From assembly GCA_903927345.1 (NCBI GenBank), contig CAIYMO010000031.1:62001-126000 (forward strand): a stretch of 64,000 nt of DNA. Reading direction: 5' to 3'. How positions within the stretch are numbered: position 1 is the stretch's first letter; each line of letters starts with the position of its first letter. Both the position numbers and the translations under genes were made by a program. The notes under the pieces are model-generated. The model did not search any database and was not told where the DNA came from. It saw only the letters and a program-made list of their open reading frames with translations. This document shows, piece after piece, positions 2,218-7,150 of this stretch. The DNA is from an uncultured Armatimonadota bacterium. GTDB lineage: Bacteria > Armatimonadota > Fimbriimonadia > Fimbriimonadales > Fimbriimonadaceae.

Positions 2218-2329
2218 GCGAAAGGGAGTAACCGCTCGGGCTTGCCCGAGACATGGATTCGTCAGTACGGGTGAACGCCCCGGATTCATGAGCCACCAAG
2301 AGATTGGTGCTGCGCGGTGAGACTTTTGG
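2218..2329 (+). promoter_or_regulatory. yybP-ykoY family (Mn2+-sensing) riboswitch
   Basis: AAAGGGAGUAACCG, hairpin CUCGGG-CUUG-CCCGAG, arm CAUGGAUUCGUCAGUACGGG...CCCCGGAUUCAUG, hairpin CACCAA-GAGA-UUGGUG, then GGUGAGACUUUU; same order as known yybP-ykoY aptamers (GGGGAGUAG...CGUCA...CACCGG...GCAAGACCUUU). Confidence 0.78.
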
Positions 2330-2381: not shown

Positions 2382-3767
2382 TTGAATCTATCTTTTCTTG
2401 CTGCCGTACTCAATGTGCTGAATCCGTCTCAGGCAAATCTGAATCTAGATGCTGTCTTAAGAGATGTTGACCGAGCATTTCCAAAGCTCATGGCAACCCG
2501 ACTTGAAGCGGCGGTTGCACGAGCCAAGAGCCAAGAAAAGCGCGGAGCATTCGATCCAGTGCTGTCTTTCGATACCGAGTTCTTACGATACAACTCGTCA
2601 AGTGACCCCGGCAAGGCAAAGACGACCTCGATGTCTGACGCCGTCGTCGAAGTCCTCGACCGAAGCGGTGTCAAGTTCTCCGTTGGCGGCAGGCTCAACC
2701 GTGGCGCAGTAAAATCTCCCGCCTCCTTTACTGGCTCATCCGGGGAGTACTTCGTCTCGGCAAAGATCCCTCTACTGAGAGACCGGATCAATAACGCCAA
2801 AACTGTCGCCGAACAACAAGCCCTCCTCGGCGAGCCAATTGCCGACCAGTTCATCCGCGAAGCGCAGCTTGGACTCTTCGAAAAAGCCGGAGCCGCATAC
2901 TGGGAACTCGTCGGCGCCAAAGCCAAGCTGGATGTCGCGGCAAGACTTCTCAAAGTAGCAACCGACCGAGCCGAATACATCCGAGAGCGAATTGCAAAAG
3001 GAGCAAATCCTCCGATCGACCAGCAGGAAGCCAACGCCGAGGTTGCCCGGCGGCAAGGCGGGTTGGACAAGGCAGAGCGTGACGTCCAAAAGGCGGAGAT
3101 CAAACTCGGTCTTTACCGCTGGCGAGAGGATGGTTCCACAATCGATGTCTCACGAACTCAGGTCAATGTCTCAGACTTGGAAGGTCGTTCAGCTGTTGTT
3201 GACGCCAAGAAGGCCCGAGACACCGCCACCCAAGATCGCCCAGAACTACTCGCTCTCCGACTGAGCCAGCAAGTACTGGGTCTAGAACTCGGTCTTGCGC
3301 AAAACGATCGGAAGCCGGGACTCGATTTGGTTATTGGCCCAGGCCTTGATCTTGGGGCCGATTCGATCGGAAACACGATGAAGGCCGGCGTGTTCTACAC
3401 AATTCCGTTACGGCAGAACTCCGCCGACGGTCGGATCAATGCCACTAAGTCCAAGCTCCAGAAACTGGACTTGGAATACAAGCAGCTTGAGCGAGCGGTC
3501 CAGATCGAGGTCAACGACGCCCTCTCGGCCCTCGCTCAAACTGAAAAACGAGTCGGTGCTGCTGTCGAAGAGGTCGCGGCGAACTTAGCCGTCGAAGAGG
3601 GAGAAAAAATCAAGTTTCTAGAAGGTGCAAGCACCCTGTTCCTCGTCAACCAACGAGAACGAGCACGGGCAGAATCGGAGTCAAGGCTAATCGAGGTCAA
3701 AGTTGAGCTTCAGCTCGCTCGACTTGCCTTACTTGCCTCGACCGCACAGCTAGGAGGTGCCAAATGA
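2382..3767 (+). CDS. TolC family outer membrane efflux protein
   Basis: 461 aa, TTG start, signal-like N-terminus, long coiled-coil OEP pattern; first gene of a TolC/ABC/HlyD operon. Confidence 0.85.
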   Translation: MNLSFLAAVLNVLNPSQANLNLDAVLRDVDRAFPKLMATRLEAAVARAKSQEKRGAFDPVLSFDTEFLRYNSSSDPGKAKTTSMSDAVVEVLDRSGVKFSVGGRLNRGAVKSPASFTGSSGEYFVSAKIPLLRDRINNAKTVAEQQALLGEPIADQFIREAQLGLFEKAGAAYWELVGAKAKLDVAARLLKVATDRAEYIRERIAKGANPPIDQQEANAEVARRQGGLDKAERDVQKAEIKLGLYRWREDGSTIDVSRTQVNVSDLEGRSAVVDAKKARDTATQDRPELLALRLSQQVLGLELGLAQNDRKPGLDLVIGPGLDLGADSIGNTMKAGVFYTIPLRQNSADGRINATKSKLQKLDLEYKQLERAVQIEVNDALSALAQTEKRVGAAVEEVAANLAVEEGEKIKFLEGASTLFLVNQRERARAESESRLIEVKVELQLARLALLASTAQLGGAK

Positions 3768-5518
3768 TCAAAGTCTCGCCATTGAAACGCGTAGGGAATC
3801 TGTTGGTTCATGAACGGAGCGAGCTCTGGGTCCTCCTGACATACACAATCACCCTGGTCATCTTCTCGTTGCTCATTCCGTTAGCGATGAACGCGTTGGT
3901 GAACTCAGTCGCAGCTGGTCTCTTCGTTCAGCCGGTTGTGATCCTGGCCCTCCTCGTCTTTGGCGCGCTCTTTATGGGCGGTGTCATGCAGATGATGCAA
4001 CTCAACTTAGTTGAGGCGATTCAACAGCGGATCTTTGCCGAAAATGCAATGAAGATCGCCGACGTACTTGCCCGAGCATGTCCCCGAAGTCTCCGCGCCG
4101 AGTACATCCCCGAACTCGTCAATCGCTTCTTTGACGTTCTCACTGTCCAAAAGGCGGTTGCGAAGCTGCTTGTCGACGGCGCGACTGCGGTTGTCCAAGC
4201 CGTCCTCGGTCTTGCCATTCTGGGCTTTTATAGCCCTGGTCTTTTGCTTCTTGACTTGATCCTCATTGTTGGACTTCTGGTGATCACGGTTGTCTTTGGT
4301 GCAGGCGGGCTCCGAACGTCGATTGTTGAGTCGAAAGAGAAGTATCACGTCGCGGATTGGCTCGAAGACATCGCGCGCTGCAATGTCTCTCTCAAAGTCC
4401 ACGGTAATCGAGACTATCTAACTCACCGAGCGGACGATTCTGTTCTGCGATACATCAAGCAACGGCAACAACACTACGCCGTCACGATTCGGCAGGCCGG
4501 TAGCTTCTACTTCTTCCAAGCTGTCGTACAAGCATCCGCCCTCGCAGGTGGAGGTTGGCAAGTGATCAACGGCGAGCTCACTCTGGGACAACTCGTCGCC
4601 GCTCAGATTATCATCACCACAGTTCTTGCCGCGCTTGAAAAGCTCGTCCGGCAGTCGGACGTATTCTTTGATCTCCTCACGGGCCTCGATAAGGTTGGTC
4701 ACGTCGCCGACATCGAAACCGAACGCACTGGCGGCAGAGAACTCCCCCATCCTGATCAATCCAAGGGCCTCGAAGTGATCTGCCGGAACGTTCGATTCCA
4801 CTATGATGCTCTCAACCCCATTCTCAATGGAATCGATCTGATTCTGAACGCTGGCGAGCGAGTCTCTCTAGTCGGAGCAAGTGGTGCGGGCAAGAGCACC
4901 CTCGGAGCGCTACTCTGTGGCCTCGACGACCCCTCTCATGGAACCATCGAACTCGACGGCGTTGAGTCAAGAACCCTGTCTCTCGACTCACTCAGAAGCC
5001 ACGTCTCCATGATCGGCTACGAAAACGAACTATTCGACGGGACCATCGAAGAGAATATCCTGGTCGGTCGCGAGCACATCTCACCGCAAGATGTCCGATG
5101 GGCGCTAGACGTATCGCAGCTCACTGACGAACTCTCCGAAATGCCCGATGGCCTACGAACCAAGGTGATTTCGATGGGCAAAAACCTCTCTCGAGGTCAA
5201 GTGCAACGGCTCCTCATTGCGCGAGCAATTGTCGGTCGCCCTCGGCTTCTCATCCTCGACGAAGCGTTCACCGGGATTGACGAGCGCCAAACTCTGAAAA
5301 TCCTCGACGCGATCTTCAAGGAGTCCAATCATTGGACGATTATCGATATCTCACACGACCCTGAGGTGGTTCTCCGGTCCGACAAAATATATGTGCTCCA
5401 AGATGGCATTATCATGGAGGCGGGTCAGGCTCTTCAACTGTCGAACAACGAGTTTGGCTCGTTCTGCCAGCTGTTCCCCAGGCTCAGCCGCCAAATCCGA
5501 ATGGGAGGTGCGAACTAA
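3764..5518 (+). CDS. ABC transporter, fused permease/ATP-binding (type I secretion/exporter type)
   Basis: 584 aa; Walker A GASGAGKST, signature LSRGQ, Walker B RLLILDEAF; ATGA overlap with the TolC gene. Confidence 0.9.
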   Translation: MIKVSPLKRVGNLLVHERSELWVLLTYTITLVIFSLLIPLAMNALVNSVAAGLFVQPVVILALLVFGALFMGGVMQMMQLNLVEAIQQRIFAENAMKIADVLARACPRSLRAEYIPELVNRFFDVLTVQKAVAKLLVDGATAVVQAVLGLAILGFYSPGLLLLDLILIVGLLVITVVFGAGGLRTSIVESKEKYHVADWLEDIARCNVSLKVHGNRDYLTHRADDSVLRYIKQRQQHYAVTIRQAGSFYFFQAVVQASALAGGGWQVINGELTLGQLVAAQIIITTVLAALEKLVRQSDVFFDLLTGLDKVGHVADIETERTGGRELPHPDQSKGLEVICRNVRFHYDALNPILNGIDLILNAGERVSLVGASGAGKSTLGALLCGLDDPSHGTIELDGVESRTLSLDSLRSHVSMIGYENELFDGTIEENILVGREHISPQDVRWALDVSQLTDELSEMPDGLRTKVISMGKNLSRGQVQRLLIARAIVGRPRLLILDEAFTGIDERQTLKILDAIFKESNHWTIIDISHDPEVVLRSDKIYVLQDGIIMEAGQALQLSNNEFGSFCQLFPRLSRQIRMGGAN

Positions 5519-7150
5519 ATGCGACGCGCGTTAAAGGAAGTTAGGTCAAAGTCGTCAGGAAAGCGAATTGCCCGAGTAATCCTGTTCCTTCTGGTGCTCT
5601 CAATTCTCATCCTGTGGCTTGTGCCCTGGCAGCAAACCATTGTGGGAGGGGGGCAAGTCTCGGTCTTCAACCCCGCCTTTCGGCCCCAAACGATTGAAGC
5701 CCAGATTCCCGGAAGGATCGTCAAATGGAACGTATCCGAAGGACAGTTTGTCAAGGAAGGGGACGTCTTAGCGGAGATCGAAGACATTGATCAAAAATTC
5801 CTCGATCCAGAAATCGAGCAGAGAATGTCCGGTCAGCAATCGGCCCTCACTCAGAGCCAAGAGTCCGAATCAGCCCGAATCGCTCGCATCACCTCGCAGG
5901 TCGGCGAAGTTCGCTCCTCTAAGATTCAGCAGCTCAAGAACGCTAACGAGCGCATTAGCCAAGCCGAGAACCGACTGAAGGCATCAAAAGCAGCGCAGGC
6001 TCAAGCTGAGCAGAACCTTAAGGCCTTCATCAAAGTCGCAAAGGCTTCTGCAGAGCAACGAAAGCTCCAAGCCCAAGATATCGTCCGCCAAAATGAGCAA
6101 CTGTTGATCACAGCCCGGCAACAATTCGAAGTTGAGAAGAAAAACTTCGACCGAGTTTCATACTTGGCGAGCAAGGGCCTCGAATCCACCCGAAACTTTG
6201 AACTTGCTGAAGCGAGCCAAGTCGCCGCCCAAGCCCGGGTTAAGCAACTTGAAGAGACCGTTGCCGCAGCAAAGCGGACAGTCGCCCTCGGCGCGCTCGG
6301 CCAAGACCAAGCTGAAATCGACATCGCGCGTCAACGCGAAGCGGTAACCCAGGCAAAAGAAGGCGTCCTCGCGGCAGATCGGGATGTCTCCATCGCAAAG
6401 AATGATCTCGTCCGAATCGAGAACGATGCAAGCGCCACCATCGCGAGCCTAGAGGCCTCCCTGCAAAGCGCAGAGAGCACGAGAGCCAAAGCCTCCTCTG
6501 ATCTCGAAAAGATCAAACTGGAATCGGCTAACGTAACCGGTCGACGCAACCAAGCGCAAATCAAAGCCCCTGCCTCTGGACGATTGATCAATATCGCCCG
6601 GTTCGGCGCAGGTTCAACGGTAAAAGCTGGTGATGTCCTTGCCACGATCGCCCCCGAAACGAAAGATCGTATCGTCGAGATGTTGGTTACCGACAACGAC
6701 GTGCGCTTCATCAGTCTCGGACGCCCTGTCCGGCTGCAGTTCGCCGGATACCCTGCAGTTCAGTTCTCAGGCGCTCCCGGAGTCTCTGTCGGTACCTTCG
6801 GTGGAACGGTCCAATTCATCGACCCCGTCGACGACGGATCCTCGCGATTCCGGGTCCTGGTCAAAGAAGCTCAGCACGTGTTGCCGGGTGGAAAGAAAGA
6901 TGGTCCCTGGCCCCCCTCTGAAAATCTGCGCCCTGGCGCCGAAGCCGTCGGATGGATCATGCTCGATACTGTCCCACTTGGCTTCGAACTCTGGCGACAG
7001 TTCAACAACTTCCCGCCGAGAATTCCAAAGGGTGACCCGTTGCTCGGAAAGGCCGGAAAGAAGGAAAGCACGGACCAAAAGGTCAAAGTCGACAAGGAAG
7101 ACAAAGCCGACTACCTCAGCCCAACCATCAAGGTGAAGGTAAAGCGATAA
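5519..7150 (+). CDS. HlyD family periplasmic adaptor (membrane fusion protein)
   Basis: 543 aa; N-terminal TM, lipoyl/barrel-sandwich halves (EAQIPGRIVKWNVSEGQFVKEGDVLAEI ... IKAPASGRLINIARFGAGSTVKAGDVLATI) around a long coiled coil. Confidence 0.9.
   Translation: MRRALKEVRSKSSGKRIARVILFLLVLSILILWLVPWQQTIVGGGQVSVFNPAFRPQTIEAQIPGRIVKWNVSEGQFVKEGDVLAEIEDIDQKFLDPEIEQRMSGQQSALTQSQESESARIARITSQVGEVRSSKIQQLKNANERISQAENRLKASKAAQAQAEQNLKAFIKVAKASAEQRKLQAQDIVRQNEQLLITARQQFEVEKKNFDRVSYLASKGLESTRNFELAEASQVAAQARVKQLEETVAAAKRTVALGALGQDQAEIDIARQREAVTQAKEGVLAADRDVSIAKNDLVRIENDASATIASLEASLQSAESTRAKASSDLEKIKLESANVTGRRNQAQIKAPASGRLINIARFGAGSTVKAGDVLATIAPETKDRIVEMLVTDNDVRFISLGRPVRLQFAGYPAVQFSGAPGVSVGTFGGTVQFIDPVDDGSSRFRVLVKEAQHVLPGGKKDGPWPPSENLRPGAEAVGWIMLDTVPLGFELWRQFNNFPPRIPKGDPLLGKAGKKESTDQKVKVDKEDKADYLSPTIKVKVKR

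Follow-up and report, generated by a model that had tools for sequence, protein, structure and literature searches.

A yybP-ykoY (Mn2+) riboswitch predicted upstream of an OMP-ABC-HlyD exporter operon in Fimbriimonadia

The leader of an exporter operon in an uncultured Armatimonadota bacterium raises two questions: whether it is a Mn2+-sensing riboswitch of the yybP-ykoY family, and what such a switch would govern in front of genes for a TolC-ABC-HlyD pump expected to reach across both membranes. We addressed both within the window, by which we mean the whole 64,000-nucleotide stretch analysed, and in related genomes of the same bacterial class. Our conclusion is that the leader is very probably a yybP-ykoY riboswitch which senses Mn2+ and, when cytosolic Mn2+ is high, activates translation of the OMP-ABC-HlyD operon. 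The identity of the aptamer and its conserved link to the operon are established computationally, by comparison of sequences, and there is good computational support for the control region as a whole. From the riboswitch family and the anatomy of the leader we infer that the RNA binds Mn2+, that it acts as an ON switch and that control is translational.

Covariance model searches of the leader

The check proposed by an earlier, sequence-only reading of this DNA, a cmsearch with the Rfam model RF00080, came out negative. The model returned no match in the window, whether the gathering threshold or E≤10 was applied, and nothing at the element's locus in a whole-genome search, leaving the element short of the gathering score of 45 bits. 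As a control, the same model (Rfam release 15, 177 positions, cut-off 45 bits) was run on E. coli K-12 regions (L130:2376-2501 and L131:2462-2558), where it scored mntP at 41.6 bits, below the gathering score, and missed alx. Within the class, it gave four matches among 113 genomes, none over the cut-off, and relatives of the window element matched at E-values of 7e-8 and 4e-5. We attribute the failure on the window to insensitivity of the model, as shown by the E. coli controls; the gathering score serves as a working cut-off and does not define the riboswitch. The sequence-only reading was to be given up if a failed search coincided with unmatched core nucleotides, and the core nucleotides match.

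Two further covariance models were used. R1 was trained on 41 class leaders, none of them from an exporter operon, and found the element as its sole match in the 64 kb at 36.4 bits with an E-value of 2e-7 (E-values of R1 and R2 are rough because calibration was shortened); because R1 has no P4, this score is an underestimate. For the same reason the P1 3′ strand was forced into P4, so that the match, at 2219-2308, has a misplaced 3′ end. In the whole genome the element was again the sole match at E≤0.01. Exporter leaders of relatives scored 31 to 61 bits with R1, and the best score at 48 loci with OMP-gene homologues, exporter leaders aside, was ∼14 bits. The R1 match in the window is well beyond what chance would give. 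Stronger still is the reverse test, in which R2, trained only on the six exporter leaders, recovered E. coli mntP (38.9 bits, E 1.3e-9) and alx (22.8 bits, E 1.4e-4), both at the correct places, together with TerC- and M48-type elements of the class. R2 places the window element, which is part of its training set, at 2219-2329. Statistical homology to validated members is found in both directions, from R2 to mntP and alx and from R1 to the window, and mntP and alx have both been described as Mn-responsive (PMC9603457).

Could ordinary hairpins in an intergenic leader merely resemble the aptamer? The miss by RF00080 and a leader MFE z-score of only −1.8 would fit such a coincidence, but we consider it extremely improbable, refuted as it is by the independent-model E-value, the reciprocal recovery of the E. 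coli elements, and the covariation and synteny described below.

Anatomy and covariation of the aptamer

The aptamer, as defined by the R1 and R2 matches and by covariation, occupies 2220-2327 on the + strand, on which all features described here lie. The parts listed in the sequence-only reading are all present and in order: GGGAGUA(A) at 2224-2231, P2, P3, a GAGA-capped P4 and the closing strand. P1.1 pairs GAAAG (2220-2224) with CUUUU (2323-2327), and GUGAGACUUUU at 2317-2327 closes onto this 5′ strand. The 5′ strand of L1, GGAGUA (2225-2230), is invariant in 41 aligned class elements and present in E. coli alx; the 3′ strand, GAGA (2319-2322), matches the RAGA conserved in class elements. 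In P1.2, ACCGC (2231-2235) pairs with GCGGU (2314-2318), with AC/GU for GC/GC as in E. coli alx, and C2233-G2316 is replaced by U-A in G025 and G027. The P2 hairpin (2236-2249) has compensatory changes at all four counted pairs among the six exporter leaders. The P3 arm (2252-2290) carries the L3 loop UCAGUAC (2262-2268), a bulge between CG and CCGG (2280-2283), such that CGUCAGUACG (2260-2269) faces CCCCGG; CGUCA and CCGG are conserved, and 6 of 10 lower-arm pairs are compensatory. A2264 is the invariant adenosine predicted to contact Mn2+ through N7, its position being assigned by homology to the Mn-contacting A41 of L. lactis and A48 of X. oryzae in crystal structures (PMC6754395). P4 (2294-2309), with a GAGA tetraloop, shows compensatory changes relative to G025. 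Judged by sequence, class alignment and alx, the conserved core is complete, comprising L1 GGAGUA/RAGA, L3 CGUCA opposite CCGG, and the invariant adenosine.

The window element shares P1.1, L1 GGAGUA..RAGA, P2, P3 with L3 CGUCA..CCGG, and P4 with the E. coli alx and mntP elements of RF00080, but differs from them in lying below RF00080 detection, in its longer P1.2 and in its target, which is an OMP-ABC-HlyD operon rather than a gene for TerC, MntP or a P-type ATPase. It has the same aptamer core as the class Mn riboswitches that precede TerC/Alx and M48/HtpX genes, although the target gene is different and those elements mostly lack P4.

Across the six exporter leaders, 94% of cells were paired under this structure and 15 of 31 pairs were compensatory. 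On four of five measures, none of 500 shuffles did as well as the real alignment, and pairing fell to ∼50% in a control in which partners were slid by one column. Covariation supports the junction fold of P1.1, P1.2, P2 and P3, together with P4. Where the window departs from the class consensus it does so by compensation, A2223-U2324 replacing G-C in P1.1 and A2231-U2318 replacing G-C in P1.2. These observations bear on whether the aptamer has drifted to sense another divalent ion or has lost sensing altogether, a reading suggested by the L1/P1.2 letters off the class consensus (AC/GU for GC/GC) and by a P4 that is extra relative to most class members. We regard drift as very unlikely, given that the AC/GU variant also occurs in E. 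coli alx, that every core letter is kept and that the P1.1 and P1.2 differences are compensatory. The yybP-ykoY identity first proposed from the sequence alone is thus borne out by the R1 match, the R2 recovery of mntP and alx, the core letters and the covariation.

Predicted switching of translation

The sequence GACUUU (2321-2326) in the P1 3′ strand could form an alternative 6-bp helix with GAGGUC (2367-2372), which contains the probable Shine-Dalgarno sequence GAGG (2367-2370), assigned from sequence and conserved in G025 and G027. In alx, G017, G024 and G045, the P1 3′ strand, which reads GACCUU plus varying letters, complements the Shine-Dalgarno stretch, which reads varying letters plus GGAGGUC or GAGGUC, and the varying letters on the two sides change together (CCAA/UUGG, CGA/UCG and GCC/GGC). 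The capacity of the P1 3′ strand for pairing with the Shine-Dalgarno region, which alx shares, suggests that translation is switched on by Mn2+, and sequestration by this strand would be a feature common to alx and the window element. Such pairing fits a translational ON switch like that of E. coli mntP, whose ribosome-binding site is inaccessible without Mn (PMC11647493). In the mechanism we propose, the P1 3′ strand would pair with GAGGUC when Mn2+ is absent and hide the Shine-Dalgarno sequence; Mn2+ would dock L1 and L3, stabilise P1 and free the Shine-Dalgarno sequence, so that high cytosolic Mn2+ would turn on translation of the tightly coupled OMP-ABC-HlyD operon.

Folding energies give the two states nearly equal weight, with forced folds at −60.3 kcal/mol for P1 and −60.2 kcal/mol for the sequestor, and neither of them is the MFE structure of the unconstrained leader. 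The anti-Shine-Dalgarno duplex of the window, GACUUU/GAGGUC, is weak (−7.4 kcal/mol) and was matched by 44 of 500 shuffles. No promoter-like site was found. An alternative output for the same aptamer is transcription termination, with the expression-platform hairpin found by scanning at 2332-2356 (GGCGAAACA..UGUUUCGUC) acting as an intrinsic or Rho-assisted terminator whose formation P1 would prevent. The hairpin lies directly after P1, resembles a terminator and has a stem mostly kept in G025 and G027; terminators are used by Gram-positive members of the family, and Rho is active in the leader of mntP (PMC11647493). However, the tail after the stem, ACATCTTGTT, has no U run, and G017, G024 and G045 bear clear Shine-Dalgarno sequestors instead, which makes termination unlikely in our judgement.

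In the G045 leader (L080), ∼40 nt past the aptamer, a Shine-Dalgarno-like GGAGGUC is followed by a possible 9-codon frame, possibly a leader peptide, before the likely OMP ATG.

The exporter operon and the role of the pump

The gene nearest the riboswitch encodes an OMP/TolC-like outer membrane efflux protein (2382-3767; PF02321, 2.3e-27), with a TTG start 54 nt from the 3′ end of the aptamer. Its stop overlaps by 4 nt (ATGA) the gene for an ABC exporter with a TMD-NBD arrangement (3764-5518; PF00664 and PF00005), and a HlyD-family periplasmic adaptor (5519-7150; PF13533 and PF13437) begins at the base after the ABC stop. The Pfam families of the three products (OEP, ABC_membrane/ABC_tran and HlyD) and NCBIfam assignment agree with the operon composition given in the sequence-only reading and, occurring together in one operon, make up a tripartite, type I secretion-like gene set. 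None of the three reached the cut-off of a named NCBIfam type I secretion subfamily (HlyB, PrtD, LssB, type_I_hlyD or type_I_sec_TolC); the HlyB score was 193.8 against a cut-off of 725.6, and that for type_I_hlyD 84.3 against 208.7. All three proteins are generic representatives of the ABC, OEP and HlyD families, far under the cut-offs for named secretion or efflux subfamilies, and the solved structures closest to the ABC protein are generic ABCB/bacteriocin-type exporters. With type I secretion and ABC tripartite efflux systems (HlyB-HlyD-TolC, PrtD and NHLM exporters) the operon shares a one-piece TMD-NBD exporter, a HlyD-like adaptor and a TolC-like OMP in a single operon; in contrast to them, it lacks a C39 peptidase domain, is led by the OMP gene, scores far under the NCBIfam cut-offs and has no substrate gene seen adjoining it. 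No metal-specific signature was noticed in the pump proteins.

The OMP-ABC-HlyD gene order recurs in seven genomes besides the window (G025, G027, G017, G024, G045, G022 and G023), and the riboswitch precedes the operon in six of these eight class genomes, the window and the first five relatives, with OMP identity to the window ranging from 84% down to 42%. A model search of the leaders found no element at the orthologous operons of G022 and G023. A search for OMP-gene homologues in 85,488 genomes revealed no such element outside this class, the distant homologues in Planctomycetota, Myxococcota, Legionellaceae and Halieaceae included. Members of the same ABC-HlyD-OMP exporter family are common in Planctomycetota and present in Myxococcota (L152-L190), where they lack the riboswitch and usually have the order ABC-HlyD-OMP or OMP-gap-ABC-HlyD.

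Over all targets, the class model found 66 elements in 55 of 113 class genomes, most of which a simple core pattern had already revealed. The other targets are TerC/Alx, M48/HtpX-type protease, P-type ATPase, carbonic anhydrase and universal stress protein genes, in keeping with the sequence-only reading's remark that an exporter operon is an unusual target. About 15 elements are found some 20-75 nt upstream of genes for membrane proteases of the M48/HtpX family (L118, L112, L090, L098, L101, L102, L104, L106, L113, L115-L117, L119, L123 and L124), and single cases precede genes for a P-type cation ATPase (L108), a beta carbonic anhydrase (L121) and a universal stress protein (L103). Among the papers searchable, none on Mn riboswitch control of HtpX was found. 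Likewise, no paper linking a yybP-ykoY riboswitch to HlyD, TolC or a tripartite exporter was found in the searchable literature, which left out the 2015 gene-list papers (Dambach, Price). The RNA belongs to a known class, and its type of target gene was not found to have been reported in the literature searched.

What, then, might the pump do? Searches of the genomes carrying the exporter element found no MntP (PF02659) and no GDT1/MneA-type protein (PF01169); a CDF transporter (PF01545) and at least one TerC-family protein are present in all of them, and short TerC proteins occur. The long Alx-type TerC is absent from G000, G025, G027 and G045, where the exporter element is the only Mn riboswitch found, and occurs in G017 and G024 together with a second riboswitch. 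The only Mn riboswitch found in this genome is at the exporter, which suggests that the pump serves under Mn excess. TerC proteins of B. subtilis cooperate with the secretion machinery, and HtpX co-purifies with them (PMC10550928; PMC10246235). This link, together with the class riboswitches before M48/HtpX genes, makes a role in the envelope or in secretion no less plausible than ion export. We consider the pump most likely to have an envelope function that Mn excess induces, substituting for the Mn-regulated Alx-type TerC missing from this genome.

Another reading accepts the switch and has the pump itself carry Mn2+, or a complex of Mn, out of the cytosol through both membranes; we hold this to be possible but doubtful, and it is not the reading we prefer. 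Known yybP-ykoY targets are mostly Mn exporters, the exporter-element genomes lack the MntP and GDT1/MneA-type families, and four of them also lack the long Alx-type TerC. Against export, tripartite exporters of the ABC type with this composition are known to handle peptides, proteins and drugs, no metal signature was noticed, a CDF transporter and short TerC proteins are present, and the class regulon, with its HtpX-type protease, carbonic anhydrase and stress-protein targets, is wider than Mn export. The specific proposal of a dedicated ABC-driven tripartite machine that is controlled directly by the Mn2+ riboswitch, expels cytosolic manganese, as Mn2+ or as a complex, straight to the outside and takes over from Alx-type TerC and MntP in these bacteria is rather improbable. 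Of the sequence-only interpretation, the arrangement stands, with a yybP-ykoY element upstream of the operon in six species; the export of Mn or a Mn-related molecule that it implied is at most a possibility for generic proteins in which no metal signature was noticed.

The current Rfam model overlooks most Mn riboswitches of a whole bacterial class as well as a classic E. coli element, which implies that known Mn regulons are undercounted. The finding adds a trans-envelope ABC exporter to the targets of a metal riboswitch that is widespread, and the function of an exporter family whose homologues in Planctomycetota, Myxococcota and Legionellaceae lack the riboswitch becomes testable via manganese.
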